DNA of 64,000 nucleotides from Planctomycetota bacterium. Its GTDB lineage: Bacteria > Planctomycetota > Phycisphaerae > UBA1845 > PWPN01. This document shows, one piece after another, positions 24,617 to 48,397 of this stretch. The stretch covers positions 124,001 through 188,000 of the forward strand of contig JAKLEZ010000005.1 in the NCBI GenBank assembly GCA_022711465.1, given 5' to 3'. The position numbers and the translations under genes are program-made. The notes under the pieces are model-generated. The model searched no databases and had not been told where the DNA came from. It saw only the letters and a list, made by a program, of their open reading frames with translations. Within the stretch, counting starts at the first letter, position 1. Each line of letters opens with the position of its first letter.

Positions 24617-24651
24617 GTCGAGCCTCCTTCAGGAAATGCGAAACCCCCTGG

Positions 24652-26655: not shown

Positions 26656-26994
26656 GACCTGGTTCCTTTCCGTGGCTTGCGTGCGGGGTTCGCCGAAGCA
26701 GCCGGCCGAGGCCTCGGCGAACGGTGGCCGTTGTGTTCCCAAGCCCCTGGACATCGGGGCCGGCGGCCCCAATCCGGGCAGGGATAGACATCAGTCATCT
26801 TACAACTTATAGCCACCGAGTCGATGGACGGACGCACAGTCCGGCCGTTTTCTCGGACGCCTGCGAAGAAGGAAGCCGCCGCGGCCTTGTCGACCGGAAG
26901 TAACAAACAGGCACAACTTCATAATAATCAATATGTTATAGACATCGAGGGCGACGAATGGTCCGGTATCGTCTGGTCTTCTTTGCGGGGAGCG
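26656..26994 (-). promoter_or_regulatory. Leader/promoter region of the glycosidase operon, AT-rich patches
   Basis: No gene is seen. Read on the minus strand there are two AT-rich patches in otherwise GC-rich DNA. The first is at about 26900-26943 (TATAACATATTGATTATTA and neighbours). The second is at 26792-26811 (CTATAAGTTGTAAGATGACT), where TATAAG (complement of 26806-26811) could be a -10 box. Both contain AAGTTGT. Placing a TTGT-containing element just after a -10 resembles the GntR promoter at 36741-36758. A promoter in this interval is likely because the operon starts here; its exact position is a guess. Confidence 0.4.
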
Positions 26995-31207: not shown

Positions 31208-33361
31208 TCATTTCCGTTCGTTGATTGGCTTGGGGATCGACGCCAACTCGCGATCCAGCCATGCGTAGATCTCTTTCAGCGTCTCCGGCGCGATTCCGTG
31301 CTTGCCGGGCTTAAGCACGTTGGTCAGCCGCTCACCCTGGTCATGGAGCTTCCAGGATGCCCGGGCCGCCTCGCCCGCCTGGTATGCACTGACCGACTCG
31401 GTGAAGATCTCATCGTTGAGGGTGTTGTGCAGGTAGAGGGCCCGGGGAGCGACGAGTCCGATGACATGGTCCCAATCCCAATGAGGCTGGCGACCTTGAA
31501 GGAAGACAGGGCGGAGCGTCGGCATGTAGCTGAACCAATGATCGCGCGCCCAGCGGAGGGGCTCCTTGTCGGCCTTGAAGGTCGCGAATCCGCAACTGGC
31601 CACGGTAGCTCTGACCTCCGGGCTGAATGCCGCGAGCATCAAGGCTTCTTCTGCTCCGAGCGAATGGCCGATGGCGCCGAGGCGTGCGGGATCGACTTGT
31701 CGGGTCTCGCGGAGCACCTGCAGCCCCTGCCGGGCGTCGAACAGCATCTTGCCCATAGCCGACTGCGTTCCGTGCCGAAGGTAATGTCCGCGGGTATCGA
31801 ACGGGCCGTACTTGTCCACGCGTTCGCCAGCGGTGATGGAATCGGGCGACAAGGTGACGTATCCGCGCTCGGCCAGATCCGAGCCGAACGCGAGGGTTGG
31901 TGAGCCCTCGAGGCCGACCGATTCGCGTTTTCCCTGTTTCACCGTTTGATGCAGGACGAGCACGCCCGGTTCTGGGCTGGCCGCCTGCCGCGGGATGCAC
32001 AGATAGGCCCTGATCCGGTCGCCGCCGTCGCCGTGGTACTCGATCAACCGGCGTTCGTACCTAGGGAGGTGTTCAACGGCGAGGGTCTCAAGGTGCAGAG
32101 AGGTCTGATCCTCGACGGGCTGCCCGAGCGTTCGCATAATGACGCGTTGGACCAGCTCACGTTTCTGTTTCCAGGTTTTCAGGTCCGCGGGGACCGGATG
32201 CAGGTCGCCGACGGGGAAGAACCGCTCTTGGAGCCAGCGATAGGCCTGCGATCGCCCGTGGGGCGGGAAGCTATGGGCTCCGTCGAAGGTCTTCCATGCC
32301 AGCTCGTTGCCGGCGCCGTACAAGCGATAGGCGGTGCGGACATCCCTGAGGACCGCATCGAGGTTGTCGGTATGGGGGAAGATCGTGTCCTGGGTGGCGT
32401 ACCAAACGAACAGCGGCCGTGGGGCCATGAGGGCGAGGATCTGAGGCCAATCGAAGGGGATGCTGGCCACGTCGGGGAGATAGGTGCCCAGTTGGGGGAT
32501 GAGAGGGGTGAGGTGCGACCAACGTTCGGGCGTCGGGTCGGCTCGCAGGGTGGTGAAGCCGCAGCTGGCGATGACCAGGGAGATGCGTGGCTCGAACGCC
32601 CCGGCGAAGATCGCGCCGTAGGCCCCGTGCGAATGGCCGATGCAACCGATTTGAAGCCGATCCACGCGGTCGAGCGTTTCGAGGTAATCGACCACGCGGG
32701 AGAGGTCCCAGATCATCTTGCTCATGAAAGACCACCGGGGATGACGGCGGTAGAAAGCGAGGCTGTCGTGATAGGGTTGCGAGCCTGGGGGGATGCGTTC
32801 GCCGAAGCCGATTGCATCCGGGGCGATGCACACGAAGCCACGGCGAACCAGTTCGAGGCCGAAAGCCAGGTCCGGGCTGCCCCTCATGCCGCACGGCTCC
32901 TCCTTGCCCTGGGCGACGGTCTGATGCAGACAGATCATGGCCGGCCGTGGGACGTCGGAAGTGTTCTTCGGCAGGAGGAGGTAGGCGGGAATCCAATCAT
33001 CCTGCTCGCTGCGGATGCGGACGTGTCGGCGCAGGTGATCGGGGAGTGTCTCTTCGCCGAGCAGGTCGACCACGGGCGGCTCGGGCCGAAGGCCGGTGGA
33101 TTCGCCCATGATGTGCTGAAGGGTGCGACTGATGAGGGTCCGCTTCTGCTCCCAGGCCTTGATTTCGTCGATGGCCGTGCTTGTCTGGCCGCGGATCGAA
33201 AGCACGGGGACCAGTTCCCTGCTTCCCGCCTGGTCGCTGGTGACATCCGGCCTGGTCCAGGTGGTGATCTCCTTCCACTTCTGCCAGTCATGACCCGGCC
33301 AAGCGTGGGCGTTGACTGTTGTCATGAGCGCGATGATGTAGCAGCGGTAATGGACGGTCAT
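31208..33361 (-). CDS. Secreted tandem alpha/beta-hydrolase (acetyl-xylan-esterase-like), two complete domains
   Basis: A 717-residue protein from ATG 33361 with a signal peptide ending near NAHA (about residue 20). It contains two homologous alpha/beta-hydrolase domains. The first (about 65-385) has the nucleophile S244 in CIGHSHGAYGA, with D325 in YATQDTIFP and H363 in GAHSFPPHG. The second (about 395-705) has S567 in AIGHSLGAEEA, with D650 in TLNDEIF and H688 in GKHGI. Both carry the same block order (CLHQTVAQGK / VLHQTVKQGK; IAPDAIGFGERI / LSPDSITAGERV). Both triads look intact. The family includes acetyl-xylan esterases and related carbohydrate esterases. A deacylating role on a plant or algal polysaccharide is inferred from context. 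Confidence 0.85.
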   Translation of the reverse strand: MTVHYRCYIIALMTTVNAHAWPGHDWQKWKEITTWTRPDVTSDQAGSRELVPVLSIRGQTSTAIDEIKAWEQKRTLISRTLQHIMGESTGLRPEPPVVDLLGEETLPDHLRRHVRIRSEQDDWIPAYLLLPKNTSDVPRPAMICLHQTVAQGKEEPCGMRGSPDLAFGLELVRRGFVCIAPDAIGFGERIPPGSQPYHDSLAFYRRHPRWSFMSKMIWDLSRVVDYLETLDRVDRLQIGCIGHSHGAYGAIFAGAFEPRISLVIASCGFTTLRADPTPERWSHLTPLIPQLGTYLPDVASIPFDWPQILALMAPRPLFVWYATQDTIFPHTDNLDAVLRDVRTAYRLYGAGNELAWKTFDGAHSFPPHGRSQAYRWLQERFFPVGDLHPVPADLKTWKQKRELVQRVIMRTLGQPVEDQTSLHLETLAVEHLPRYERRLIEYHGDGGDRIRAYLCIPRQAASPEPGVLVLHQTVKQGKRESVGLEGSPTLAFGSDLAERGYVTLSPDSITAGERVDKYGPFDTRGHYLRHGTQSAMGKMLFDARQGLQVLRETRQVDPARLGAIGHSLGAEEALMLAAFSPEVRATVASCGFATFKADKEPLRWARDHWFSYMPTLRPVFLQGRQPHWDWDHVIGLVAPRALYLHNTLNDEIFTESVSAYQAGEAARASWKLHDQGERLTNVLKPGKHGIAPETLKEIYAWLDRELASIPKPINERK

Positions 33362-33591
33362 GGGTGATCGCCCCCTGTTTGTCGGTCCTTGGGCCGGCAT
33401 CGGCCGGCGACAGCCGCTCTGCGCTGGGATGGGGCAGGCGATGGACTCGCCGCCGGCCGTCGGGTGAACCTGTGCGCGAGGGCGGAGGTCGTGCGTGCAG
33501 TCTAGCACCCGGGCGGCTGGCGGCCAAACCGTTCGTGCTCGGGCGAATACCCGTTGTTTCGGCTTGGCGTTGCTGCTACCGTAGAGGCGCC

Positions 33592-34995
33592 ATGACATTG
33601 CGTCATCGCCTGTTGCTGGTTTATCTGATTGTGGTGTTGCTGAGTGCGGCCACGGTGGGCGTGGCCGTTTTCGAACTCGAGGCTGCCCGGCGGATCTACG
33701 GAGCATTGCAGCCGCTCGGGGATATTGCCCTGGGCGCCCAGAAGCTTCAGTCCGTTCTTCCTCGAGGGGGAGAGCCGCTGACCGACGCGGTCGGCGGGGA
33801 CTTCGAGAACCTGCTGGCCAATCAGAACATCAAGCTGAGCGAAGTGGCCGACTACCGCAACGTGGACGACCTCCGGCAGGCTCTGATCACGCTGAGTCTT
33901 CGATTCCAGAGGTGGCGGAGTGCTGCTGCGGAGGATGCGGCCGAGCAAGCTCCGGGCGTTCGCGGGGCGTTGCTGATGTACTCGCAGCTGGTTGACGAGA
34001 ACCTGCTCCGGCTGCAGGGTGAAGCGAGCCTGCAGGAGCTGCGTAAGCAGATTCTGCTCAGCGTTGTGGTGGTGCTGACCGTTTTGCACGTGGCGGTGAT
34101 TGCGGGGCTGATCAAGCGGTGGCTGCTCCGCCCGATGGAGCGGCTGGGTCGCCAGGTTGAGGCTTTGGCGCGGGACGAATCGCCCCGGGAGCCGCTGCTG
34201 AGCTCGCCGCGGGAGATGGCCGCCCTGGCCGAGGCCTTGGATCGCGCCCACCGCTCGCTGAGGGCCATGCGGCAGCAGCTGATCGACTCCGAGCGGTTGA
34301 CGACCATCGGGCAGTTTGCCACCCAGCTGGCTCACAATCTGCGCAACCCGCTGGCCAGCATCCGGGCGACGGCGCAGCTGACGGCGCGGCACCAGAAGGA
34401 CGTACCTGAGACCCGGCAGAGGATGGAGGAATTGATTGCCTCGGTAGACCGGATGAATCATTGGATTGCCGGGCTGATGGAGGTGGCCAAGGAGCGTCCG
34501 ACGCCTGCCCAGCACATGAACGTTGTGCCGACCCTCGAGCGGGTTCGGGATGCCCTGGCTGCGGAGGTGGCTGCCAAGGAGCTCAAGTTGACCGTGGCAG
34601 CGCCGGAGGAGGGTTTGGCGTGCATTCACGATCCGGCCACGCTGGAGCAGGCCCTGGTGGCGATGGTGACGAACGCGATTGAAGCGTCGCCGCTGGGCGA
34701 GGCGATCGAGGTTCGTGCCGAACGGGTGGGGTCGTCGCCGGACGGGCAGAAGTGCCGAATCACGGTTCGGGATCACGGCTGTGGTCTGCCGGTCGACGCC
34801 CCGGAGCGGATCTTCGAGTTCTCCTACTCGACCAAGCAGCGGGGGATGGGGCTGGGCCTGGGTCTGGCCCGACAGGCCCTGCAGCGTCAAGGGGGTTCGG
34901 CCCATGCGGAGAACAACCCCGAGGGCGGGGCGAGTGTGTACGTGGAATTGCCCATGATCGGGAATGGAGATACAAAGGGAGGAAGTGGAAGGTGA
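33592..34995 (+). CDS. Membrane sensor histidine kinase
   Basis: A 467-residue protein from ATG 33592 (AGAGG upstream); the longer frame from 33364 runs antisense over the esterase leader. Transmembrane helices at about 6-28 and 152-175 enclose a roughly 120-residue periplasmic sensor of no recognised fold. HAMP follows at about 172-225, then the H-box with H248 in QLAHNLRNPLASI, N-box NAIEASPLGE, G1 RDHGCGLP and G2 GMGLGLGLA. The H-box and catalytic domain are of the NtrB-like type, matching the NtrC-type regulator encoded 146 bp downstream. The signal is unknown. It is transcribed divergently from the esterase gene, so the pair may control it. Confidence 0.92.
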   Translation: MTLRHRLLLVYLIVVLLSAATVGVAVFELEAARRIYGALQPLGDIALGAQKLQSVLPRGGEPLTDAVGGDFENLLANQNIKLSEVADYRNVDDLRQALITLSLRFQRWRSAAAEDAAEQAPGVRGALLMYSQLVDENLLRLQGEASLQELRKQILLSVVVVLTVLHVAVIAGLIKRWLLRPMERLGRQVEALARDESPREPLLSSPREMAALAEALDRAHRSLRAMRQQLIDSERLTTIGQFATQLAHNLRNPLASIRATAQLTARHQKDVPETRQRMEELIASVDRMNHWIAGLMEVAKERPTPAQHMNVVPTLERVRDALAAEVAAKELKLTVAAPEEGLACIHDPATLEQALVAMVTNAIEASPLGEAIEVRAERVGSSPDGQKCRITVRDHGCGLPVDAPERIFEFSYSTKQRGMGLGLGLARQALQRQGGSAHAENNPEGGASVYVELPMIGNGDTKGGSGR

Positions 34996-35141
34996 GAGGC
35001 GAGAAGTGAGGTCGAAGGCAATCGGGCTTCGCCGCTTCTGAGGTGTTCCGTTTCCAGGCTCCGGCGAGCTTCTCACCGGGGTGGTGTTTTCTGACCAGCT
35101 GACGTTTCGACGGATGATCTCGGCTTTCGGTGTTGCAGCCT

Positions 35142-36718: not shown

Positions 36719-36746
36719 TTGACCGCGGGGCGAGTGTGGATAATAT
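36719..36746 (+). promoter_or_regulatory. Candidate sigma70 promoter of the GntR-led operon
   Basis: TTGACC (36719-36724) and TAATAT (36741-36746) are separated by 16 bases, 49 bp upstream of the GTG start of the regulator. The AT-rich -10 region stands out in GC-rich surroundings. The palindrome at 36747-36758 follows directly, which places it over the expected transcription start. Confidence 0.5.
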
Positions 36747-36758
36747 ATTGTGCACGAT
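36747..36758. promoter_or_regulatory. Palindromic operator candidate ATTGTGCACGAT
   Basis: The 12-mer is symmetrical except at the third position pair (AT-N-GTGCAC-N-AT). The GT-NN-AC core matches the type of operator bound by FCD-class GntR regulators such as UxuR/ExuR. It lies just downstream of the -10 box of the operon headed by exactly such a regulator, so autorepression is a reasonable inference. No second copy was found in the window. Confidence 0.5.
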
Positions 36759-36794
36759 TTCTGTCCAGGTCTCGGACGCTTCTGAGGGCGAACC

Positions 36795-37457
36795 GTGGTC
36801 ACCCGACCGATCCGGCGTGTCAATTTCGTGGACGAGGCGTATGCGGCCATTCGCCGGCTGATTGTCAGCGGCGAGTTTCCGCCGGGGGCCCAGCTCAAGA
36901 TTGACGCTCTCGCCCGCATTCTGGGGGTGAGCAACTCTCCGATCCGGGAGGCCCTGCGGCGGCTGGAAAACGAGCGCTGGGTGCAGACGATTCCCTATCG
37001 TGGGGCTTTTGTGCGGGCCCTGGATGAAGTGGAGCTGGTCGAGCTGTACGAGCTTCGGGAGTTCATCGAGACCTCGGCGTTGCGTAAAGCCATGCCCCGC
37101 CCCGCGGGGGCGCATCTCAAGGCCCTCGGGGAGGCCCAGCGGAGGATTCGAGCTGCCTTGCGGGGCAAGGATCTCGCCGCGTACCTGGCGGCCGATACCC
37201 GGTTTCACCGGATCATCGTGGAGATGGCCGGCAACCGCCGGCTGAGCGAGCTGTTCGCGACCCTAATCGAGCAAGGGAAGTGCTTCATGCTGGGCCGGAC
37301 GCAGCGAGCGATAGCCAGATACCGCGACGGCCGCGACCAGCACGCGGAGATGGTGGAGGCGATCGCCGGGGGTGACACCGCGAAGGCGCTTGGACTGCTC
37401 CAGCGGCATTTGCGTATCACTTTGGAGCAGGTCCGGCGTTTGGCGAGCCGGGAGTGA
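36795..37457 (+). CDS. GntR-family transcriptional regulator, FCD (FadR-like) subfamily
   Basis: A 220-residue protein. The GTG start at 36795 has GAGG seven bases upstream. Winged HTH at about 8-75: AYAAIRRLIVSGEFPPGAQL, IDALARILGVSNSPIREALRRLE and an RGAFV wing. The FCD ligand domain (about 80-215) shows the helical pattern ELREFIETSALRKA, AADTRFHRIIVEMAGN and DQHAEMVEAIAGGD, with the Asp/His residues that bind metal and a carboxylate-type ligand in this subfamily. Members sense sugar acids, lactate, amino acids and similar. It is the first gene of the unit running to 47952; its stop overlaps the frame of the next gene. It probably represses the unit until the substrate is present. Confidence 0.93.
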   Translation: MVTRPIRRVNFVDEAYAAIRRLIVSGEFPPGAQLKIDALARILGVSNSPIREALRRLENERWVQTIPYRGAFVRALDEVELVELYELREFIETSALRKAMPRPAGAHLKALGEAQRRIRAALRGKDLAAYLAADTRFHRIIVEMAGNRRLSELFATLIEQGKCFMLGRTQRAIARYRDGRDQHAEMVEAIAGGDTAKALGLLQRHLRITLEQVRRLASRE

Positions 37458-37468
37458 GGGTTGTGCGC

Positions 37469-39373
37469 ATGCGTCGGACGAGAGTGGCCGAACACGTCGT
37501 GCTGGCCCTTGGAGGGTTGGGGCTGGGCGCGGCCGGCTGCGCCGGGCTGGCAGGCCCGTTGGCGGGGCTGAGTGCCGGCCAGGATGATCGCGGCCCCTGG
37601 TGGATGCGCCAGACAGCGATGAGCCGTGATGGTTCGCTGGACCTTCGGAGCAAGCCGTGGTGGCCACGAGCGATGCAGCTCGGCGTCGGCGAGCGGTTCA
37701 TGATCGAGGAGAACGGGCTGGCCGGCGGGAACATGCTGGTTCGGCGGGAGCGGATCAGGAACCGCAGCAAGGAGGTTGAGGCTCTTGTCTGGGTCATTGA
37801 CGATGACACCGACGGCAGCCTTCGAACCGGCGGGGATGAGGATTCGGACTGCTACGTGGCCGACTACGGTTGCGACGGTGTTCCGGATCGCATGGTGGAC
37901 TACATCGACGACGACGGGGACGGCACCGCGGACGAAATGGACATCCGCTACTATGCCGGCGGGCGGCTCGACTACTGCTGGTTCGCCAGGGACTTTGACG
38001 GTGACGGGTGCATGTGGAGTGTGCGCGGCTACGAGTATGGCGGTCCGAGCTTCTTCGAAGCGGACCCATACGGCGACAACATGATCTACATGAACAAGTT
38101 CAATCCGGTGGAGGGCACCTGGTCGCCGATCTCGGAGTGTCCGTTCGCCTTCTACGATACCGACGGTGACGGCTACAGTGAAGTGGTTGTCCGGTTCAGC
38201 GCCGTGCCGCTGGGTTACGATCCCGGCGTTCATCCGGACTACGCGAACAATCAGTTTTCCGGCTCGTGGGATCCGGGGATGGCCCGGATGGGCGTGGTGA
38301 ACATCCGCTACAGCTTTGACATCGACAACCTCAGCGGGAAGGAGACGCCGCTGCACTACGACTGCGGATTCAATCTGGTCGGGGCGGTGCCGTACGAGTT
38401 TGCGGGGATGTGGCAGGTCAACTCGAGACGTCGCCCGCCGCAGGCGACGTGCGTGGTTCCGTATGATCAGGTCCGCTCGGTGAGCGATCGCTATGCCGCC
38501 CGGGAGACGGGTTTCAGCTGGCATGAGCAGCACGACGACACGATCGCGATCGGCTACGGAGAGCGGCAGAAGGACGACTGGCGATGGGAGGGTGTCTTCT
38601 GGATCTGGGAGCGGCGGTTCATGGAGAACACCGGCGGGCCCTGCCAGCGGTGGAACGTGCGTCGGGAATGGAGCAGCAGGCCCAGCAACCGCCGGGCGTT
38701 GTATTACAGCGGAGTCGACGGGCGGATTCACCTGTTCGGAGCCGAGGAGGGTTGGATTCAGCGGGGGCATTTTGCGGGACTGGGCAATCTGGGTGAGATC
38801 CGGATGTACGACACTGACGGGAATGGTTACTTCGACCGGTGGGAGGTGTACGACGGGCAGGGCCCTGTGCCGGTGCGGGTTTCGACGGTGGGCGACGAGA
38901 AGGTTCGACGCGTGCCGTTTGACGAGCAGTGGTTGCGGCGTTTCTACCTGGAGGAGGTGGTTCCGCAGGCGACGGCGGGCAGTGTCATGCTGCTCGAGGC
39001 GATGGGCGAGGTTCACCCTTGGGCCATGCCGGCCGGGCTGGCCGACGCGACCCGTGGTGGGCCACCTGGGTTCCGGCGTTACGCCCTCGATGTAGCGTGC
39101 GAGCTGCACTACCAGTCTCTGCGACGGTCGTTGAGTGTGGTGGCCGGCCGGGTCTTGGCCGGTGCGAGGATGGACGATCTGCGATCCCTGAAGCCGGACC
39201 AGCGGGCGGCGACGGCGAACTCGCAGACTGGCTGGCAACTGGTGCGGTCGCTGGAGAGGCTGGATGCGGCCTGGGGGCGAGGCGATCTGGCGAGCGTGAA
39301 GGCGGCGATCGCCGAGCTGAAGCGTTCACCGCTGCTGGGCCGGACGGAGGCGGGCGGCAAGGCGGAGCAATGA
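37469..39373 (+). CDS. Exported lipoprotein with DxDxDG calcium-binding-like repeats
   Basis: A 634-residue protein. I chose ATG 37469 (GAGGG upstream); a GTG at 37454 overlapping the GntR stop is possible. Signal peptide with lipobox LGLGAAGC (Cys at about residue 23). Residues about 85-400 hold several EF-hand-loop or TSP3-like Asp-rich motifs: VIDDDTDGS, DYIDDDGDGTADEMD, ARDFDGDGC, FYDTDGDGYSE, MYDTDGNGYFDRWE. No family is recognised, but this part is homologous to the N-terminal half of the protein at 43571 (shared pattern DSDxYxAD...DGxxD...DY.D.D.D, then VVxRxSxxx...IRYSFDxDxxSG and RLHL/RIHLFGAEEGW-type block). It is likely anchored at the outer or inner membrane facing the substrate. 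Function unknown. Confidence 0.78.
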   Translation: MRRTRVAEHVVLALGGLGLGAAGCAGLAGPLAGLSAGQDDRGPWWMRQTAMSRDGSLDLRSKPWWPRAMQLGVGERFMIEENGLAGGNMLVRRERIRNRSKEVEALVWVIDDDTDGSLRTGGDEDSDCYVADYGCDGVPDRMVDYIDDDGDGTADEMDIRYYAGGRLDYCWFARDFDGDGCMWSVRGYEYGGPSFFEADPYGDNMIYMNKFNPVEGTWSPISECPFAFYDTDGDGYSEVVVRFSAVPLGYDPGVHPDYANNQFSGSWDPGMARMGVVNIRYSFDIDNLSGKETPLHYDCGFNLVGAVPYEFAGMWQVNSRRRPPQATCVVPYDQVRSVSDRYAARETGFSWHEQHDDTIAIGYGERQKDDWRWEGVFWIWERRFMENTGGPCQRWNVRREWSSRPSNRRALYYSGVDGRIHLFGAEEGWIQRGHFAGLGNLGEIRMYDTDGNGYFDRWEVYDGQGPVPVRVSTVGDEKVRRVPFDEQWLRRFYLEEVVPQATAGSVMLLEAMGEVHPWAMPAGLADATRGGPPGFRRYALDVACELHYQSLRRSLSVVAGRVLAGARMDDLRSLKPDQRAATANSQTGWQLVRSLERLDAAWGRGDLASVKAAIAELKRSPLLGRTEAGGKAEQ

Positions 39374-39424
39374 TCTCGCGCCCGGCGCGAACGGCCGACG
39401 GGGGACACGAAAGGCGGTAGGTTG

Positions 39425-41119
39425 ATGCTGCTGGCGGCGGGCGAGTCGAGTCATCTGGCCGGGCCGGACTACTTCATCCTGGTCGGGTACTTTGTGATCA
39501 TGCTCGGGGTTGGGGCGTACTTCTGGGGGTACATGAAGGGCATGTCGGACTACTTCTCGGGGCGTCATCAGATTCCCTGGTGGCTCTCGGGGGTGTCGTT
39601 CTACATGACGAGCTTCAGTGCGTTTCTCTTTGTGGCCTATTCGGAGCTTGCCTTTCGCAAAGGTCTGGTGGCGGTGACCGTGGGTTGGGCGGTGGTTCCG
39701 GCGGTGCTGATCGGCGTGATCGTTGTGTCCGGCCGCTGGCGGCGTGCTCGGATCAACAGTCCTGCCGAGTATCTGGAGGAGCGTTTTGGTCTTGGCCTGC
39801 GCCAGACGTTCGCCTGGGCCAACGTTATCGTTCGCATGATCGATGACGGTTTGAAGGTTTACGCGACGGGCCTGTTTCTGTCCAAGAGCGTGGGGCTCGG
39901 TCTGGGGGAGAGCATCGCCTGCACCGGTTTGATCACGCTGGCGTACACGTTCATGGGCGGACTGTGGGCGGTGGCGGTGACCGACTTTGTGCAATTCGTG
40001 GTCATGCTGGCGGGGGCGGCGGTCTTGCTGCCCATGGCCCTGGTCCGGGTGGGATGGCTCGGCGGCCTGGTGGACCATGCTCCGCCGGGCTTTTTCAGTC
40101 TGACCGCGGGGCCCGATCACAGCTGGTGGTTTCTCGGCGGGTGGTTCCTGCTGCTGGTCTGCAACTACAATACAAGTTTTGGCCTGGTGCAGCGGTACTA
40201 CTGTGTGCGCGACGAGAGAGAGGCTCGGAAGGTCGGGTATCTGGTGGCGGTTCTCTGCCTGGTGGGCACGCCGATCTACTTCATTCCGGCGATGTGTGCC
40301 CGGCAGTTCATGCCCGATGCGGTTCCGGGGAGTATCTACGCGGCCCTGTGCGTGGAACTGCTTCCGGTCGGCCTGCTGGGTCTGGTTGTGGCGGCGATGT
40401 TTTCGGCGACGATGTCCACGCTGAGCGGCGACTACAACGTGGTGGCCGCGGTTCTGACCAACGACGTTTACCACAGGCTGATCGACCGCCAAGCGTCGGA
40501 GCGGCGGCTAGTCACGGTGGGGCGGGCCTGTACGCTGGTCGTCGGCCTGGTGCCGATCGCGATCGGGCTGTGCATCGCGTATCTCATCGGCAACGACCTC
40601 CTTTTCAGTTGGATGGTCAAGCTGTTCAGCGTGGCGTCTCCGCCGATTGCGATTCCCATGCTGGCCGGGATTCTCTGGCGGCGGTGTTCGAATGCCGGAG
40701 CCCTGGCGGGTTTTCTCGGCGGTCTAGGCGTGGGGCTGGGTCTGTTCTTCTGCGGTCTGAAAGACTACCAGATCGCGGCGGCCACCACGGCCGCGACGCT
40801 CATCGAGATGGTGGTGGTGAGCCTGCTGGTGACTCCCGGCGAGCCGGAGCTGCGAGGACGTGAAGGCGTGTTTCGCAGGCTTGATGCGGCGGTTTCTCGG
40901 GAGGAACTGGCTGCAGAGAGGGGTGGCCCTTCGCCGTTTCGCATTGTCGGCCTGTCGACGATCGCGATCGCGCTCATGCTGCTGCTGGTCATGCCGTTTG
41001 TGCCGTGGAGCTCCGGCTCGATCGTCAACCTGGCGATTGCCATCGGTCTTTTCGTACCGGGCGTCATCTGGATGAGGCAATCGGGCCTTGAATTGAAGGA
41101 AGCGGGGCGAGAATCATGA
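39425..41119 (+). CDS. Sodium:solute symporter (SSS family)
   Basis: A 564-residue protein from ATG 39425 (AAAGGCGG upstream). It has about thirteen hydrophobic helices. Characteristic stretches include MSDYFSGRHQIPWWLSGVSFYMTSFSAF, INSPAEYLEERFG, GGLWAVAVTDFVQFVVMLAG, and ATMSTLSGDYNVVAAVLTNDVY, the last a sodium-site segment of the family. Members import sugars, sugar acids, inositols, nucleosides or amino acids with sodium. As the only transporter of the operon it should define the imported substrate, which cannot be told from sequence alone. It ends in an ATGA overlap with the dehydrogenase gene. Confidence 0.93.
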   Translation: MLLAAGESSHLAGPDYFILVGYFVIMLGVGAYFWGYMKGMSDYFSGRHQIPWWLSGVSFYMTSFSAFLFVAYSELAFRKGLVAVTVGWAVVPAVLIGVIVVSGRWRRARINSPAEYLEERFGLGLRQTFAWANVIVRMIDDGLKVYATGLFLSKSVGLGLGESIACTGLITLAYTFMGGLWAVAVTDFVQFVVMLAGAAVLLPMALVRVGWLGGLVDHAPPGFFSLTAGPDHSWWFLGGWFLLLVCNYNTSFGLVQRYYCVRDEREARKVGYLVAVLCLVGTPIYFIPAMCARQFMPDAVPGSIYAALCVELLPVGLLGLVVAAMFSATMSTLSGDYNVVAAVLTNDVYHRLIDRQASERRLVTVGRACTLVVGLVPIAIGLCIAYLIGNDLLFSWMVKLFSVASPPIAIPMLAGILWRRCSNAGALAGFLGGLGVGLGLFFCGLKDYQIAAATTAATLIEMVVVSLLVTPGEPELRGREGVFRRLDAAVSREELAAERGGPSPFRIVGLSTIAIALMLLLVMPFVPWSSGSIVNLAIAIGLFVPGVIWMRQSGLELKEAGRES

Positions 41120-42144
41120 GTGACATCGGAATTGGCGTTGTCGGGTCGGGTTTCATGGGGCGCACGTACTCGGAGACCCTCTCCAAGTACTGTACCCGCG
41201 GCCGCCTCAAGGCCGTGGCGGCAGGGTCGCGGGCCGGGCAACTGGCCGAGGACTACGCCATGGACCTGGAGCCGTCGTTCGAAGCCCTCATCGCCCGCCA
41301 GGACATTGACGCGGTGTTCATCGCCACGCCGCATCATGTCCATGCCGAGCAGGCGATTGCCGCGGCCGGGGCCGGCAAGCACGTGCTGATCGAGAAGCCG
41401 ATGGCTTGTACGGTTGCCGAGTGCGACGCGATCCTGGACGCCTGCCGCAAGAACAACGTTCACAGTTCGATCGCCTTCACGCAGCGGATGCGGATCTGCA
41501 ACATGCGGGCCAAGCGGATCATTGCGGACGACCGGATCGGCGGGATCCAGCAGATCGCCTCGACCCAACTGAACGGCGGCGGGGTGGGCACGCTCCCCAA
41601 GTGGCAGAGCGAGGTCGAGAACCTGGGCACGCTGTTCGGGCATGGCATCCACAATTTCGACTCTATCCGCTGGCTGACTGGTCAGGAGATCAAGACGGTC
41701 TACGCCAAGTGCGGCAGTTTCGAGCCCGGGCTCAAGGTTGAGGGCACGTCCATGGTGGTCATGTCCATGAGTGGTGGCGCCTTTGCCAGCCTGTGGAGTT
41801 CGTTCCAGATGCCCCGGCCCTCGTTCCCGAGGGCCCAATTTGCGGCCCGCATCGTTGGCGAACGGGGTCTGATCGACCTTGACGCCTATGGTGAGCTGCG
41901 TCTGTCCGTGGGCGGCGGGCCGTGGGAGGTGGTCGAGACCCAGGCTCCGATCGACTGGCAGGGCAAGGGCTTTCTGGATCCGGTCCGGCTGGAGAGCTAC
42001 ACCCGCCAATGCCAGGACTTCATCGACGCGTGCATTGGGAATCGCCCTCCTTTGGTGACCGGCTGGGACGGGCGGCAGGCGGTGGCGGCAGCGTTGGCGG
42101 CGTACGAATCCGCGAGGAGCGGCAAGGAAGTCGTGTTAGCGTAG
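41116..42144 (+). CDS. Cytoplasmic Gfo/Idh/MocA family dehydrogenase
   Basis: A 342-residue protein that overlaps the symporter stop as ATGA. There is no signal sequence, unlike the two other Gfo/Idh proteins of this window, so it acts in the cytoplasm. Rossmann motif GIGVVGSGFMGRTYS, then VFIATPHHVHAEQA, the signature Lys in LIEKPMACTVAE, and GHGIHNFDSIRWL in the substrate domain. It most likely oxidises a hydroxyl of the imported compound to a ketone with NAD(P), as the first intracellular step. Inositol dehydrogenase- or sugar-dehydrogenase-like activity is the default guess. The next gene follows after 126 bp. Confidence 0.92.
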   Translation: MSDIGIGVVGSGFMGRTYSETLSKYCTRGRLKAVAAGSRAGQLAEDYAMDLEPSFEALIARQDIDAVFIATPHHVHAEQAIAAAGAGKHVLIEKPMACTVAECDAILDACRKNNVHSSIAFTQRMRICNMRAKRIIADDRIGGIQQIASTQLNGGGVGTLPKWQSEVENLGTLFGHGIHNFDSIRWLTGQEIKTVYAKCGSFEPGLKVEGTSMVVMSMSGGAFASLWSSFQMPRPSFPRAQFAARIVGERGLIDLDAYGELRLSVGGGPWEVVETQAPIDWQGKGFLDPVRLESYTRQCQDFIDACIGNRPPLVTGWDGRQAVAAALAAYESARSGKEVVLA

Positions 42145-42270
42145 AGGGAGGTGCGGACGGAGGGGTGCTGCCCTGACATGGCGTGTGACCTGGGGAGATT
42201 TGACCGGCGAGACGCCGGCGTCCCCGCGGTTGTGCCGGGCGGCCCTTTGGCTCCGGGTTTGGAGTGGGGC

Positions 42271-43569
42271 ATGCGTTTCGATCATTCACGGGCGCTCTAC
42301 GAGCGGGCCTGCCGGACCTGTCCGGGGGGCATTCACAGCAACGTGCGGGCCCATTGGGCGCCGCAGCCGATGTACTACGATCACGGCCGGGGGGCGCACG
42401 TCTGGGACGCGGACGGCAACGAGTTCATCGACTATGTTCTGGCCCGCGGGCCGCTGCTGCTGGGTCATTCGCCCGCCGGCGTGCTGGAGGCGGTCAGGAA
42501 GCAGCTTGATCGTGGTCTGATGTACGCCGGTCAGCATGTTCTGGAGATCGAAGCCGCGGAGAAGTTCTGCTCGATGGTGCCCTGCGCGGAGATGGTCCGG
42601 TTCAGCAACTCCGGCAGCGAGGCGGTGCAGGGTGCGATGCGGCTGGCGCGCGGCGTGACCGGCCGGCGGAAGGTTCTGCGTTTCGAGGGCCACTACCACG
42701 GCTGGTTCGACAACGAGATGTGGAGTACCGCCCCGGCGCTCGATGCCGCCGGCCCGCGTGAATCGCCCCGGGCGACACCCGCCAGCAAGGGCCAGGTGGC
42801 CAGCGACGCCGAGAACCTCGTGGTGCGGCCCTGGAACGATCTTCGCCTGGTGGAGGCGGCCTTCGACCGGCACCGAGGCGAGATCGCCGCGATTTTGACC
42901 GAGCCGATCATGTGCAATTGCGGCGGCATCATGCCTGAACCGGGCTTTCTCGAAGGTCTGCGCGAGCTGTGTACGAGAGACGGCGCCCTGCTGATCTTCG
43001 ATGAGGTCATCACCGGCTTCCGGGTCAGCCTTGGAGGGGCTCAACAGCATTTTGGCGTTATCCCGGACGTGGCGACCTTTGCCAAGGGCATGGCCGGCGG
43101 TTTTCCGGTCAGCGCCGTCGCGGGCAAGCGGGAGTACCTGGGTGCTTTCGGTGACCTGTCGATCAGTCACGCGGGGACCTACAACGGCAACGCGCCCTGC
43201 ATGGCGGCCACGTTGGCGGCGTTGACCATGCTGGGGGCTGACAAGGGTGCCCTGCTCCAACACGCCCACGACATGGGCCACGAGCTTATGCGTGGCATTG
43301 AGCAGCTCGCCCGGAAGGCCGGCAAGGACGTCCATGTGCGGGGGGTTCCGACGGCGTTCTTCGTCTCCTTCAATGATCGCGAGCGGATCATCGACTATCG
43401 CACCTCGCTGGGCCGGGACCGCGAAGCCTACGCTCGATTCTGGCTGGCCCTGCAGGAGCGTGGGGTTCGCACCCTACCGGAGGGGCTGTGGTTTGTTTCC
43501 ACCGCCCACACGCAGGAGGACGTTGACCGGACTCTCCGGGCGGTGGCCGAGGCGGTCGAGGAGGCGTGA
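42271..43569 (+). CDS. Class III aminotransferase, glutamate-1-semialdehyde aminomutase-like
   Basis: A 432-residue protein from ATG 42271 (GGAG upstream); the frame is open back to 42151 without a better start. PLP-binding residues are visible: SNSGSEAVQGAMRLAR, GHYHGWFDN, the cofactor Asp D244 in LLIFDEVITGF, and the Schiff-base lysine K272 in TFAKGMAGGFPVSAVAG. The overall pattern is that of the HemL-like branch. Many members outside heme biosynthesis transaminate or aminomutate other small keto compounds. Its place between a dehydrogenase and hydrolase-fold proteins suggests a catabolic or modifying step on an amino-bearing or keto intermediate rather than tetrapyrrole synthesis. Confidence 0.9.
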   Translation: MRFDHSRALYERACRTCPGGIHSNVRAHWAPQPMYYDHGRGAHVWDADGNEFIDYVLARGPLLLGHSPAGVLEAVRKQLDRGLMYAGQHVLEIEAAEKFCSMVPCAEMVRFSNSGSEAVQGAMRLARGVTGRRKVLRFEGHYHGWFDNEMWSTAPALDAAGPRESPRATPASKGQVASDAENLVVRPWNDLRLVEAAFDRHRGEIAAILTEPIMCNCGGIMPEPGFLEGLRELCTRDGALLIFDEVITGFRVSLGGAQQHFGVIPDVATFAKGMAGGFPVSAVAGKREYLGAFGDLSISHAGTYNGNAPCMAATLAALTMLGADKGALLQHAHDMGHELMRGIEQLARKAGKDVHVRGVPTAFFVSFNDRERIIDYRTSLGRDREAYARFWLALQERGVRTLPEGLWFVSTAHTQEDVDRTLRAVAEAVEEA

Positions 43570-43570
43570 G

Positions 43571-46471
43571 ATGGGAAGCGTGGTCAGCAGTCAGCGATGG
43601 GCGGTCAACCGGAGATGGTCCGGGGTTGGCCTGCCGACGGTTCTGGTTCTGGTCGGGCTGTCCGGTGCGGTCGCCGTGGCTCAAGATGCCCGGCAGCAGC
43701 TTCTCGAGCGCGTGTTTGGCGACCGGGTCAAGTTCGACCCGGCGATTATCGTCCAAGTCAGGGCCCTGCCGGCCGGGCAGCGGCTGCTCCTCGACAGCAA
43801 TGGTGACGGCAAGAAGGATGAAGCCTGGTTCATCGACACTGACGTTCGGCATTCGGTCCAGCTCCGGCCGCTCCTGGTTCGGGCGATCGACGAGGACGGG
43901 GATCTGGACCGGGACGGCAGGCCGGATCTGGACAGTGATCTTTATATTGCCGACTGGCGGGCGGACGGCAGGGTTGACGTGGCCCTCGACTACCAAGACA
44001 ACGACGCCGACAACGACGTCGACGAGACGGCCTTCTACTTCTACATGCCCGACCACCCGTACTTCGGCAGAGACGTGCTTCGCGTCTGGTGGGGCAGCGA
44101 CGACGGCGACGACAACCTGCTCTGGTACGATCAGGACTACACGTACTACCAGGATCGCTGCCAGTATCGTTGCCATTTCAGCGGCGACGAGTCGTTTGTG
44201 GCCTTTGGCCTGACGGCGGGCAGCAGTCACTGGACCTCGGCTTTCGAGAATCCCTTCCTGTTCTATGATCCGGATGGCGACCGGTGCAGCGAGGTCGTCT
44301 TGCGGATTGAGGGCGTCGACGACCAGATCCGAGCGATCCGTTACAGCTTCGATGCCGACGACGACGCCTCCGGCCGGCGAACGCATGACTACGACTTCTC
44401 CATCACCGCCGTGGCCGAGAAGGACAAACCGGTCAAGCTCTCCGGCGCGGTCACGGCGAGCATGAACCTGCGCGGCATTCCCACCCAGGGCTGGCTCAAG
44501 CGGGAGGCTGCCCAGCCGCTTGTCGTCCGCACCTCGTGGCACAAGGCCTGCTTGACCTGGGACGAGGTAAACGCCAACACCGAGGAGAACGTGGCCAGGG
44601 ACCCGCATGAGCGCTGGGAGGGAATCATCGCCCACTCGTCCAAGGACTTCCCGCAGATTGGCGGGCCACCCTGCAGCGTTCTCAACAAGCGCAACGAGAT
44701 TGCTCTGCGGCCTGCCAGCCCCATGCGGCTCTACCGCCACCCGGCGGATCACCGGTTGCACCTCAAGGGCGCGAACCAAGGCTGGCTGGAGGTCGATTTC
44801 GATTTCGACGGCAAGGTGGACGCCAGGTACACGTGGCTCGACAAGAACGGGGATGGCATCTTCGACCAGCGTCAGCTCGATCTCGACGCGGATGGTACCG
44901 CGGAGTTTCTGTGGCCAATGCCGGCTGAGGGTGTCCTCGAGATTGAACCGGGTTTCCGCACGATCGTCGACGCCTACCAGCCGGAGCTGGATCGGGTCCT
45001 GGGTGACAGCCAGACGTTCATTGACGCAGCCAAAGGTCTGCGTTCCAGGACTTCTGCCAAGGCCGACCCGGCGGAGACGTTCTTCCTCCGGGAGCTGGAA
45101 TCCTGGATGTCGGAGGCCGGTTTGGGGGCCTCCATCCGCAAGAGTCCTGGCGGCGCCCGTTTCTACGTCGATCTGGTGCGCGACCGTTTGCTGCTGGCCC
45201 TCAGGGGTGACTTCGGACATGACCCGCGGTGGGCCGACCTGGAGCAGGCCTATGCCGCCGGCGACTACCGGAAGGCGGCGGCGCTTATCTCCCGGCTTTG
45301 TCCCGAGCCCGGGGAGATCGCCCGCTCCGCGATGCCCGGGGCATTTCGCGCGGACTTGCGGTTCGGACCTTACGCCGGGCGTATTCCAATCCGGATCGAC
45401 AACACCGGCGGTCGGCCGCGGCTGAACTGGCCGGTGGCGATCCCGGTCAAGCACATCAAGGCGGTGGCGAAGGACTTCATCACCGCTTGCGCGGTGGTGG
45501 CGCCCGATCGGTGGCTCGACTGGCGCGAGATTCCACACCAGGTGGACACCATTGACCCATCGGTCGGCGACGAGATGAGTTTCCTGGTCGACGTTCCGGG
45601 GGATACGGCGGTGACGTACTACGTCTACTACAGCGGGTCCGGCGGTCCCGGACGCACGTTCCCGCGGCGGACGGGCACGGCCGAGGACTGGGTTCCACCG
45701 AACATCGGCTGGGAAAACACCCGCGTCGCATATCGTTCCTATTGGGGCCAATTCGACTTCTTCGGCAAGAAGATCGACCGGCTCATCTACGACCATCTGG
45801 GGAGCAAGAGTTACCACGGCGAGGTCGAGTGGGGCATCGATGCCCTGCACGTGGGCGAGGCATCCGGCATCGGCGGCCTGGCGCTGTATCAGGGCGACAG
45901 GGATTTCCTGGTGCAGAACCCGGCCGGCAAAGGCACGGTGAGATTCGTCAAGAGACAGCTGGTCCAGGGTCCGGTCCGAGCCGCGGTCGAGGTTGTCGCG
46001 ACGAACGTGTTGCCGGAGCAGCCGGACCTGGCGGTGCGGCTTCTTTCGGTCATCTATGCTGAACGGCAGGAGAGCGAGATCCAGGTGTCCCTTTCCCGGC
46101 CCGGCGCGGGTGTGCGTCTGGGGCCCGGCTTGGTGAAGCTCCCCCGGGAGCGGGTCTTTGCCGATCGGGCGACCGGCTGCATGGGCGCGTGGGGTGTGCA
46201 GCAGGAGGTGATCGGGGAGATCGGCATGGCGATCATCGTGCCACCCGGCCAAGTGCATGATTACCTGGACCTGCCCGCCGAGCGCCGGCTTTGCTGCCGC
46301 CTGGTTGAGGACCGCAAGCTGACCTACTGGATCTGGGGTGACTGGCGCCGGGGTCGGCAGCACCCGATCGCCCCGACGATCGACGACTGGCGAGCGGAGG
46401 TGAGGGAACTGGCCATGCTGCTGCATCATCCGCCGCGGATTGAGATCGGGGAGCTCGAGGAAGTACCATGA
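43571..46471 (+). CDS. Large exported protein: DxDxDG-repeat domain plus DUF4861-like C-terminal domain
   Basis: A 966-residue protein that starts one base after the aminotransferase stop (ATG 43571), with signal peptide GLPTVLVLVGLSGAVAVAQ. The N-terminal 480 residues are Asp-rich with calcium-loop-like motifs (LDSNGDGKKDE, DEDGDLDRDGRPDLDSD, DNDADNDVDE, FYDPDGDRCSE, WLDKNGDGIFDQRQLDLDADG) and are homologous to the lipoprotein at 37469. The C-terminal 320 residues (WENTRVAYRSYWGQFDFFGKK...GKKIDRLIYDHL, DALHVGEASGIGGLALYQ) resemble DUF4861, a beta-rich domain found near polysaccharide-degradation genes. No catalytic residues can be named. It is probably a surface or periplasmic binding or processing protein for the substrate of this operon. 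Confidence 0.8.
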   Translation: MGSVVSSQRWAVNRRWSGVGLPTVLVLVGLSGAVAVAQDARQQLLERVFGDRVKFDPAIIVQVRALPAGQRLLLDSNGDGKKDEAWFIDTDVRHSVQLRPLLVRAIDEDGDLDRDGRPDLDSDLYIADWRADGRVDVALDYQDNDADNDVDETAFYFYMPDHPYFGRDVLRVWWGSDDGDDNLLWYDQDYTYYQDRCQYRCHFSGDESFVAFGLTAGSSHWTSAFENPFLFYDPDGDRCSEVVLRIEGVDDQIRAIRYSFDADDDASGRRTHDYDFSITAVAEKDKPVKLSGAVTASMNLRGIPTQGWLKREAAQPLVVRTSWHKACLTWDEVNANTEENVARDPHERWEGIIAHSSKDFPQIGGPPCSVLNKRNEIALRPASPMRLYRHPADHRLHLKGANQGWLEVDFDFDGKVDARYTWLDKNGDGIFDQRQLDLDADGTAEFLWPMPAEGVLEIEPGFRTIVDAYQPELDRVLGDSQTFIDAAKGLRSRTSAKADPAETFFLRELESWMSEAGLGASIRKSPGGARFYVDLVRDRLLLALRGDFGHDPRWADLEQAYAAGDYRKAAALISRLCPEPGEIARSAMPGAFRADLRFGPYAGRIPIRIDNTGGRPRLNWPVAIPVKHIKAVAKDFITACAVVAPDRWLDWREIPHQVDTIDPSVGDEMSFLVDVPGDTAVTYYVYYSGSGGPGRTFPRRTGTAEDWVPPNIGWENTRVAYRSYWGQFDFFGKKIDRLIYDHLGSKSYHGEVEWGIDALHVGEASGIGGLALYQGDRDFLVQNPAGKGTVRFVKRQLVQGPVRAAVEVVATNVLPEQPDLAVRLLSVIYAERQESEIQVSLSRPGAGVRLGPGLVKLPRERVFADRATGCMGAWGVQQEVIGEIGMAIIVPPGQVHDYLDLPAERRLCCRLVEDRKLTYWIWGDWRRGRQHPIAPTIDDWRAEVRELAMLLHHPPRIEIGELEEVP

Positions 46472-47199
46472 TCATCGACGGTCACGTCCACATCGGGCCC
46501 GCGCAGTTCCTTCAGATCGACGCGGACGCGCCGACGCTGATCGACATCGCCGACAGGGTCGGCATTGACCTGTTGTTCGTGACCCATGTTACGGCCCTGT
46601 TCTACGACATGCGTGAGGGCAACGACGCGCTGGGAAGCGAACTGACGCGTTACGGTGACCGCCTGCTTGGTTACGTGACCATTCCGAACCATCGGCTGGG
46701 CCGGACGGCCTGCGACGAGATTCGCCGGTGCGTGGAGATCTACGGCATGCGTGGGGTGAAGATGTACTCACATCCCGAATCGCCGATCACGGAGGCGAGT
46801 TCGACCGCGATCCTGGCCACGGCGGCCGAGCTCAAGCTGCCGGTGCTCGGGCATTTCACGCCGAGTGAATGCGACGTGCTCATGGCCCGCGTGCCCGAGG
46901 TCCGCATCATCATGGCGCACATGGCTGGTCAGCCATACGCGTTCGGCAACTGGCACCTGGCGGTCGAGGTGGCGGGCCGTCATCCGAACCTGTACCTGGA
47001 CACGGGTACATCTCAGATCGACAGCGGCATGCTGGAACACGCTGTCGAAGTGCTGGGTCCGGAGCGGATTCTATTCGGCACGGACACGCCGCTGCTGGAT
47101 CCCTGGGTTCAGCGGGCCAAGGTGGAGGGTGCCGAATTTGAACCGGGGGCCAAGTTGCTCATTCTCGGCGGGAACATGGCCCGGTTGCTGGGGCTTTGA
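46468..47199 (+). CDS. Amidohydrolase-fold enzyme (COG2159-like), metal site intact
   Basis: A 243-residue protein whose ATG overlaps the preceding stop (ATGA). TIM-barrel metal-dependent hydrolase: the first-strand HxH is H6-V-H8 in MIIDGHVHIG, a further His in LPVLGHFTPSE, another in IIMAHMAGQ, and the last-strand Asp D206 in ILFGTDTPLLD. Family members hydrolyse lactones or decarboxylate or hydrate carboxylated rings. The short length (others are 280-330) suggests a minimal barrel. The next gene begins four bases on and encodes a homologue that has lost these metal ligands, so the two may form a heteromer. Confidence 0.88.
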   Translation: MIIDGHVHIGPAQFLQIDADAPTLIDIADRVGIDLLFVTHVTALFYDMREGNDALGSELTRYGDRLLGYVTIPNHRLGRTACDEIRRCVEIYGMRGVKMYSHPESPITEASSTAILATAAELKLPVLGHFTPSECDVLMARVPEVRIIMAHMAGQPYAFGNWHLAVEVAGRHPNLYLDTGTSQIDSGMLEHAVEVLGPERILFGTDTPLLDPWVQRAKVEGAEFEPGAKLLILGGNMARLLGL

Positions 47200-47202
47200 A
47201 TC

Positions 47203-47952
47203 ATGCGTATTGACGTCAACGCGTTTTTCGGTCACTGGCCTTACTGGCCGCTCCCGGCGACCGGCGGGGACGACCTGCTGAGGCTCATGGACTGTTGCCT
47301 GATCGATCGGGCCGCGGTCACTTCCCTGCGCGGGCTGTTCGGCGACTGGCCGACCGCGAACGGCGAGGCGCTGGCCCTGGCACGGGCCCATCCCGATCGG
47401 CTAGTGCCGGTCGCGTGTCTCAGCCCGATGAACGGCGGCGGCGGGAAGATGCTACGACGCCTGGTGGAGGAAGGCTTCAAGGCCTGCCGCCTCTATCCCC
47501 TGTTGCTGCAGGGTTACAGTTTGCGTAGTCCCTTTGCCGACGAGCTGGCCGCGACCGCTGGCGAGTGCGGGATTCCGGTGATCGTCCCCACGCGTCCGAT
47601 GATGAACTTCCGTTTCCCGGTGCTGCCGATCGGCGATGTGGCCGACCTGGCCGACCGACACCCGGGCACCGCGTTCATTCTGAGCGGGCCGAACTACCTG
47701 TCCGAGTTTCGCACCGCGGTCGAGGTCATCGCAAGCCACGTCAACATCAGCATTGAGACATCCTGCATGCAGGGCTTCCAGGCCATCGCTCGGATGGCCG
47801 AGGCGGTAGGTGCGGAACGTGTGCTTTTTGGCACCGGATCGCTCTTGCAGTATCCGGCCTGCGGGCGAGCCAAGCTGGACCATGCCGACATCACCCCGGG
47901 GCAAAGAGCCCTGATCGGCGCGCAGAACGCCGAGCGCGTGCTCCGGCTGTAG
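47203..47952 (+). CDS. Amidohydrolase-fold pseudoenzyme, metal ligands lost
   Basis: A 249-residue homologue of the preceding protein with the same block order. At each metal position the ligand is gone: MRIDVNAFFGHWP replaces D-x-H-x-H (H6 to N6, H8 to F8), IPVIVPTRPMM replaces the GHFTP segment, FILSGPNYLSE replaces the AHMAGQ segment, and VLFGTGSLL replaces FGTD (Gly212 for Asp206). Both have exactly 37 residues after this point. The frame is intact and codon use is normal, so this is a conserved non-hydrolytic paralogue and not a dying gene. It is likely a partner subunit or regulator of its neighbour. It is the last gene of the unit. Confidence 0.85.
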   Translation: MRIDVNAFFGHWPYWPLPATGGDDLLRLMDCCLIDRAAVTSLRGLFGDWPTANGEALALARAHPDRLVPVACLSPMNGGGGKMLRRLVEEGFKACRLYPLLLQGYSLRSPFADELAATAGECGIPVIVPTRPMMNFRFPVLPIGDVADLADRHPGTAFILSGPNYLSEFRTAVEVIASHVNISIETSCMQGFQAIARMAEAVGAERVLFGTGSLLQYPACGRAKLDHADITPGQRALIGAQNAERVLRL

Positions 47953-48078: not shown

Positions 48079-48397
48079 TTCCGACATGTCGCGATTCGGC
48101 TATTTAATTGCGCAAAAACGCCGTAGCCTCCCAGGGTCGGAACCGGTTAAGATAGGGGTGCGTTCGGTGTTCCGGAGGAGGAAACTGGTTGGAGGGGGAG
48201 GGGCACCGACCAGAGGTGGACTGCACTGGGTCTCTGACGGTGCACGACTTCGAATCGGCCGGCCTGAGGTTGACCGTGGGCCGGGACCCGAGGTGCCCAT
48301 CGCGGGGACCCGGTGTTGCACAAGCTGATCCGCGGACCGAAGCAGCGATCCGCACACCAAGTCGGACGACGGCGAGCCACCGTCGTCCGGCTTTTTT
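48079..48397 (+). ncRNA. Candidate structured RNA of unknown class in a 672-bp intergenic region
   Basis: Between the operon end (47952) and the next gene (48625) I find no coding sequence. A possible promoter (TTCCGA 48079-48084, 16 bases, TATTTA 48101-48106) is followed by about 250 bases with many helices: AACCGGTT/AACTGGTT enclosing TTCGG/CCGGA, GGGCACC/GGTGCCC enclosing TGCAC/GTGCA and CCGGCC/GGCCGG, GGTGT/ACACC and GCGGA/TCCGC. A strong terminator ends it at 48397. The organisation of promoter, structure and terminator fits an independent small RNA. It lacks the conserved cores of RNase P RNA, tmRNA and SRP RNA that I can recognise. 6S RNA cannot be excluded. Confidence 0.4.
48361..48397 (+). 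terminator. Strong intrinsic terminator
   Basis: A 12-bp stem (10 perfect pairs CGGACGACGG/CCGTCGTCCG plus U-G and G-C below) with a 7-base loop CGAGCCA is followed by a run of six T. It is over 400 bases past the last upstream stop codon, which argues that it ends a separate non-coding transcript or a very long 3' leader. Confidence 0.85.

Follow-up and report, generated by a model that had tools for sequence, protein, structure and literature searches.

Introduction

Several described systems each resemble one part of the unit analysed here, a run of eight plus-strand genes at positions 36719-47952 of a 64-kb stretch of planctomycete DNA (the window; loci in other genomes carry L-numbers). 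The first are the KduI/KduD (5-keto-4-deoxyuronate) loci: at L022, a homolog of the unit's DUF4861 fusion protein and a related SSS-family sodium:solute symporter stand beside true KduI and KduD, whereas the window unit has a Gfo/Idh dehydrogenase (GFO), a pyridoxal phosphate (PLP) aminotransferase and a pair of amidohydrolases in their place. By its C-terminal domain, DUF4861 in Pfam, the fusion is also related to the polysaccharide utilisation proteins of the BT_3233 family; however, it falls far below the cut-off of the BT_3233 model (41.6 vs 320) and has an N-terminal DxDxDG domain of no known family. We found no paper on DUF4861 or BT3233 in the openly licensed literature. The aminotransferase shares the class III PLP fold and the catalytic Lys motif with GSAM (HemL) and with HemL-like transaminases such as GntE but, unlike GSAM, lacks an FE..F stretch and scores under the NCBIfam cut-offs. 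Finally, the amidohydrolase with intact metal ligands (AH1, the live partner) resembles COG2159/Amidohydro_2 proteins (ACMSD, gamma-resorcylate decarboxylase, 3cjp, 3nur) in its HxH, H, H, D ligands and by profile match; it differs in being short and in forming a fixed pair with a ligand-less homolog (AH2, the dead partner). Such an association of a competent with a degenerate homolog is reminiscent of active/pseudoenzyme heteromers, as described for paired RNase III subunits (PMC9508840). A search of the openly licensed literature for amidohydrolase pseudoenzymes or pairs of this kind found none, which is weak evidence of novelty; the pair family is apparently undescribed.

A live and a dead amidohydrolase occur as a pair

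AH1 matches Amidohydro_2 (PF04909) at 100.9 bits against a cut-off of 26.4, and it has the complete HxH, H, H, D set both in the window and in three syntenic orthologs. It is a short form of 243 residues, whose nearest relatives in profile searches are COG2159 decarboxylases and uncharacterised amidohydrolases. AH2 belongs to the same Pfam family (78 bits), with N/F/P/G/G at the positions where AH1 has H/H/H/H/D, and the ligands are missing from all four syntenic copies. The first-pass annotation of the window had already noted a paired live/dead amidohydrolase; this holds, and the pairing extends far beyond the locus. A Planctomycetota-wide search with an AH2 profile gave matches in 64 of 392 genomes, and the five ligand positions were read in 60 fetched loci, in the window and in four syntenic loci. 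Together these contained 62 live, 55 dead and 5 intermediate domains, dead members outside the window retaining at most one of the five ligands. Of the 54 adjacent pairs in this first set, 50 were live+dead and 4 live+intermediate; the genes were mostly 6-107 bp apart and both gene orders were seen. Among genomes of several phyla that carry the fusion, 18 of 22 had matches, and 20 further loci added 19 live+dead pairs and one live+intermediate pair. Pooled over at least five phyla, the 74 adjacent pairs comprise 69 live+dead and 5 live+intermediate ones, with not a single live+live or dead+dead pair. These pairs were ascertained by the dead (AH2) profile; in a control with the live profile on 89 genomes, 12 of the 14 best matches (145 bits or more) had a dead or intermediate neighbor. 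Armatimonadetes genome G620 (L053) alone has 27 dead-profile matches and about a dozen live/dead pairs.

The two partners have also diverged together. In the larger of two quick trees computed without bootstrap, built by maximum likelihood from 119 domains after the ligand columns had been taken out, one change between live and dead suffices once intermediates are set aside, and the dead members form one clade. The first tree, of 104 domains, needed two changes; its main dead clade had a Shimodaira-Hasegawa-like approximate likelihood ratio (SH-aLRT) support of 95, and its live and dead subfamilies were mirrored. Distance matrices of live and dead partners were correlated (r = 0.756 for 50 pairs and 0.688 for 69 pairs), a level reached in none of 2000 permutations, and the nearest neighbor was identical in 30 of 50 pairs. 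L094 (G546:C309) has four tandem amidohydrolase genes at 389-3409, which make up two live/dead pairs of different subfamilies. In the first tree, its two live members fall into different live subfamilies and their neighbors into the corresponding dead ones. Since partners are matched here within one genome, species history alone is insufficient to explain the mirrored trees. At L123, L127 and L135 the first tree places the degenerate partner within the live clade; the metal site was apparently lost there in part, later and independently.

Co-inheritance and co-divergence suggest that AH1 and AH2 may form a physical complex, and the family looks ancient and is probably heteromeric. We think it likely that it represents an obligate, undescribed heteromeric family present in at least five phyla, which arose by one duplication and one metal-site loss, was inherited jointly through many paralogous lineages and carries out the hydrolysis in a variety of catabolic clusters; here it would act alongside a dehydrogenase and a PLP aminotransferase on an undescribed route for uronate-derived sugars.

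Gene order is conserved across phyla

With the fusion protein as query, 28 loci were recovered from 84,980 species genomes, and each locus was compared with the window proteins; the loci surveyed come mostly from metagenome-assembled genomes (MAGs). Conserved order over distant genomes, which the first-pass annotation had named as the check on its reading, was indeed found. In a Phycisphaerae MAG (L028), seven genes follow in the same order, from DxDxDG protein 1 (VCBS1) through SSS, GFO, HemL, fusion and AH1 to AH2, at 51-73% identity, and six of them, SSS to AH2, do so in Omnitrophota (L031) at 38-63%. In a second planctomycete, L027, the order is kept from VCBS1, represented by its C-terminal part only, to AH1. 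The AH1 homolog there (12799-13632) is 75% identical up to residue 192 and diverges afterwards, and AH2 is missing, so that L027 apparently holds a decayed copy of the unit. Smaller sets were found at L047 (SSS-GFO-HemL-fusion), L030 (fusion-AH1-AH2-VCBS1, followed by a sulfatase), L033 (HemL-fusion) and L034 (GFO-fusion). The fusion loci L033 and L047 are without an amidohydrolase pair, but the same genomes have one elsewhere (L154 and L155, respectively), close to that of the window (AH1 45%). Such conservation of synteny over distant genomes implies that the genes constitute one functional unit.

In the window itself (Table 1), all eight open reading frames (ORFs) lie at the positions given earlier, and the strands, overlaps and gaps that had been read as tight joins were verified on the sequence. 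SSS and GFO overlap by ATGA at 41116-41119, and so do fusion and AH1 at 46468-46471; the HemL-like and fusion genes are 1 bp apart, AH1 and AH2 3 bp. The longest of these spacers, 126 bp between GFO and HemL, takes the HemL-like start to be the ATG at 42271 because homology to all orthologs begins there. The base composition of the region resembles that of the rest of the window, so nothing in it hints at a recent arrival from a donor of different GC content.

Table 1. Features of the unit and its surroundings in the window
Feature	Coordinates	Strand	Basis
383-aa protein with N-terminal hydrophobic stretch (left arm)	30017..31168	-	homologs in L031, L032
Duplicated alpha/beta-hydrolase, glucuronyl-esterase/dienelactone-hydrolase-like (left arm)	31208..33706	-	homologs in L033, L032
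Promoter-like TTGACC-16-TAATAT and overlapping palindrome, likely GntR operator	36719..36755	+	sequence matches only
FCD-type GntR regulator	36795..37457	+	Pfam FCD 84 bits, GntR 65 bits
Exported DxDxDG protein 1 (VCBS1), no Pfam family	37454..39373	+	homologs in L028 57%, L030 44%, L027 47% (part)
SSS-family sodium:solute symporter	39422..41119	+	SSF profile match, syntenic orthologs
Gfo/Idh/MocA dehydrogenase (GFO)	41116..42144	+	orthologs in L027 68%, L028 66%, L031 63%, L161 62%
HemL-like class III PLP aminotransferase, predicted not to be the housekeeping GSAM	42271..43569	+	Pfam Aminotran_3, alignments
Exported fusion: N-terminal DxDxDG domain, helical linker, C-terminal DUF4861	43571..46471	+	Pfam, structure model
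DUF4861 domain within fusion	about 45395-46441	+	supersandwich-like fold
Live amidohydrolase AH1, COG2159-like, ligands H6/H8/H129/H151/D206	46468..47199	+	Pfam, alignment
Dead amidohydrolase AH2, five of five ligand positions replaced, AH1 partner	47203..47952	+	Pfam, alignment
Terminator-like hairpin downstream of unit	48359..48393	+	14 pairs, then T's

Symporter and cytoplasmic enzymes

The symporter matches SSF at 142.9 bits and TIGR00813 at 181.3, slightly under the cut-off of 184. In the dehydrogenase both the N- and the C-terminal Gfo/Idh/MocA domains were matched. Solved inositol dehydrogenases rank top in a profile search with it, and its best NCBIfam match is the inositol 2-dehydrogenase IolG; at 145.8 bits against a cut-off of 355, the protein is not assigned to IolG.

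The HemL-like enzyme scores about 290 bits to solved GSAMs, yet it lies below every NCBIfam cut-off, and the GSAM models themselves are missed (360 vs 527 for TIGR00713; 386 vs 398 for PRK00062). The C-terminal FE..F stretch of the aligned GSAMs, which we take to hold the substrate-gating Glu, is missing in it and unconserved in five orthologs, while a separate HemL of the source genome (at C23) retains it. Judged by these alignments, the enzyme is distinct from the housekeeping GSAM. A wider HemL-like subfamily, 44-49% identical, is found in other planctomycetes (L180-L183), unlinked to amidohydrolase pairs. A different arrangement is seen at L161, in the genome of L029: an SSS fragment is followed by GFO, a DegT aminotransferase and then the dead and live amidohydrolases. 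DegT is another family of PLP aminotransferases, and its presence in the HemL slot supports the view that PLP amine chemistry genuinely belongs to the pathway. DegT genes also directly adjoin amidohydrolase pairs at L084, L093 and L094, and a HemL homolog lies beside the pair at L089.

Exported proteins and the left arm

The two DxDxDG proteins noticed in the first pass contain five DxDxDG-like motifs each; about 0.1 would be expected, and none of 2000 shuffles of the same residues reached five. DxDxDG protein 1 matched no Pfam family, its structure model has a predicted local distance difference test (pLDDT) score of 77.7, and the model of the DxDxDG domain found no confident fold match in the PDB (best E 8e-3). 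The DUF4861 (PF16153) match in the fusion covers the entire model (1-380 of 380) at 109.1 bits vs a cut-off of 22.3. In Foldseek searches, the AlphaFold model of the fusion (pLDDT 84.5) retrieved GH38 mannosidases and the exo-rhamnogalacturonan lyase of PL26 (best E 2.7e-9 and 1.5e-4). From the regions common to these matches, the DUF4861 part reads as a beta-supersandwich-like fold of carbohydrate enzymes. This suggests that the fusion probably does more than capture substrate. The surface location of the two exported DxDxDG proteins and their part in substrate capture, as first proposed, are predictions.

The unit also appears to be larger than the interval assigned to it at first: its eight genes stand, but its boundary does not. 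The alpha/beta-hydrolase of the left arm is 48% identical over 708 residues to the gene directly after HemL and fusion in L033, and 46% over 714 residues to the gene directly before the fusion in L032. Homologs of the 383-aa protein occur in L031 (35%, near the fusion) and in L032 (32%, within the ORF of the DxDxDG domain and fusion); this protein has no Pfam or NCBIfam family and no PDB relative by sequence. Because both minus-strand genes are homologous to genes found beside the DUF4861 fusion elsewhere, the unit reaches left to 30017. Further out on the minus strand, at 19837-26772, three large exported glycosidase-like genes stand in a row, perhaps in the same carbohydrate region; one is clearly GH36/NPCBM by Pfam, and its neighbor at 24652-26772 is similar in sequence.

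Regulation

As first proposed, a promoter-like site (36719-36746) precedes the genes and overlaps an imperfect palindrome, GTGGATAATATATTGTGCAC, at 36736-36755; both are sequence matches only. The palindrome occurs once in the window and is a likely GntR operator. The hairpin downstream of the unit is strong and terminator-like. The regulator matched both the GntR winged helix-turn-helix and the FCD domain in Pfam, but its inclusion in the conserved set has to be given up: no GntR gene was present at the syntenic loci compared with the window proteins, and other regulators lie near related loci, an IclR gene adjoining the fusion in L022 and a LacI gene adjoining the L161 genes. The GntR regulator is local and lies outside the conserved gene set. 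A histidine kinase and an NtrC-type sigma-54 activator (about 33400-36545, plus strand) between the two arms could be a second regulator; matches to sigma-54 sites were at chance level, with none upstream of the unit.

Discussion

The first-pass annotation left the substrate unidentified; the neighbors of related loci now narrow it to uronic-acid-rich carbohydrates. At L022 and L044 (Sedimentisphaerales), the fusion occurs with KduI (367 bits, cut-off 250) and KduD (359 bits, cut-off 338.85), and the L022 symporter beside them is 42% identical to that of the window. At L029 (3822-8879), the reading frame of the DUF4861 fusion extends without a break into a GH67N/DUF4838 alpha-glucuronidase-like region. 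Sulfatases are found at L028, L030, L038 and L040. The L032/L035/L038 cluster has heparinase II/III-like proteins, and L027 and L040 carry 3-keto-disaccharide-hydrolase-like proteins. An MR_MLE protein beside the L031 unit was considered as a sugar-acid dehydratase; it scores as the MenC/acylamino-acid-racemase type and was dropped. Taken with the glucuronyl-esterase-like hydrolase of the left arm, the KduI/KduD, sulfatase, GH67-like and heparinase-like neighbors suggest a carbohydrate that is rich in uronic acids and probably sulfated.

On balance, we lean towards reading the unit as a conserved catabolic module for such a carbohydrate. Outside the cytoplasm, the fusion, DxDxDG protein 1, the left-arm esterase-like hydrolase and the 383-aa protein would retain or process the glycan, and the small sugar or sugar acid set free would enter with sodium through the symporter. 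The Gfo/Idh dehydrogenase might then turn a ring hydroxyl into a ketone, at whose position the PLP enzyme, a HemL-like one in the window and a DegT-like one in a relative, would add or remove an amino group. The product would be hydrolysed by a two-subunit amidohydrolase in which AH1 bears the metal site and AH2, without metal ligands, may assist it structurally, allosterically or by binding substrate; local control would come from the GntR regulator. Such an order and direction of reactions is conjectural. The earlier proposal that the substrate is oxidised, transaminated and opened gains support for its amine step from the DegT gene of L161, while its steps stay provisional.

Several observations weigh against this interpretation. 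The gene set is rare: among about 391 other sampled Planctomycetota genomes, close relatives of GFO were found in 1 and of HemL in 4, and the latter are not beside amidohydrolase or close GFO genes. At most fusion loci outside the core (in Hydrogenedentota and Bacteroidota), GFO, HemL and amidohydrolase genes are missing from the vicinity, so the exported half can part from the intracellular one. The uronate markers come from separate loci and never all from one, and a Pfam scan of the window proteins found neither KduI nor KduD in 36719-47952. The Foldseek matches of the fusion have low global TM (template modelling) scores, as just part of the model aligns, and the catalytic roles proposed for AH1 and the PLP enzyme are based on family membership.

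An unlikely alternative is that a glycosaminoglycan-like polymer supplies the substrate in the form of an amino sugar or an amino-uronic acid. The PLP enzyme would then deaminate it, and the amidohydrolase pair would take off an N-acyl group or cleave some other C-N bond. This would give a purpose to amidohydrolase and aminotransferase alike, and heparinase-like, SGSH_C-type sulfatase and KduI/KduD neighbors would fit; however, nothing of the NagA or NagB type was seen nearby, and AH1 has its nearest relatives among COG2159 decarboxylases and uncharacterised amidohydrolases rather than in NagA.

It is rather doubtful that AH2 instead catalyses a reaction of its own by a different chemistry that needs no metal, the pair thereby performing two successive steps. 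AH2 does appear to be under selection, given that the dead clade has conserved positions of its own (D4, N53, P99, N242, the near-invariant G10 and S187, and F209-G210) and that a DxN motif replaces the lost HxH. Yet the residues at the five ligand positions vary freely among subfamilies, and the rule of one live and one dead member, along with the mirrored trees, is more simply explained by a complex.

Still less probable is a route for inositol-like cyclitols or aminocyclitols, with Gfo/Idh forming an inosose, the PLP enzyme interconverting inosose and inosamine, and the amidohydrolase pair opening the ring. Gfo/Idh and DegT-type aminotransferases do make inosamines in aminocyclitol biosynthesis, the dehydrogenase has the inositol affinities described above, and an L022 protein belongs to the KduI/IolB Pfam family. 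Against this, the dehydrogenase is far under the IolG cut-off, the L022 protein passes the 5-dehydro-4-deoxyglucuronate isomerase model, and glycan-degrading neighbors would be unexpected with free inositols. That the order is a chance or purely local grouping of unrelated catabolic genes is hardly credible: although Gfo/Idh, sulfatase and SSS genes abound in planctomycetes and two nearby genomes of the source's family are without the fusion, the synteny at L028 and L031 already refutes this in its simple form.

Lone catabolic operons of unknown substrate are common; the present unit stands out by its synteny across phyla and by the narrowed substrate class, which make a uronic-acid-rich carbohydrate module directly testable. 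The larger point is the pair itself: at dozens of loci, one intact and one ligand-less amidohydrolase lie side by side, and the family libraries that we used label both simply as Amidohydro_2. If the two form a heteromer, assays of the live gene alone may show no activity, and catabolic steps in Planctomycetota, Omnitrophota, Hydrogenedentota, Latescibacterota and Armatimonadetes would become approachable by co-expression of the two partners.

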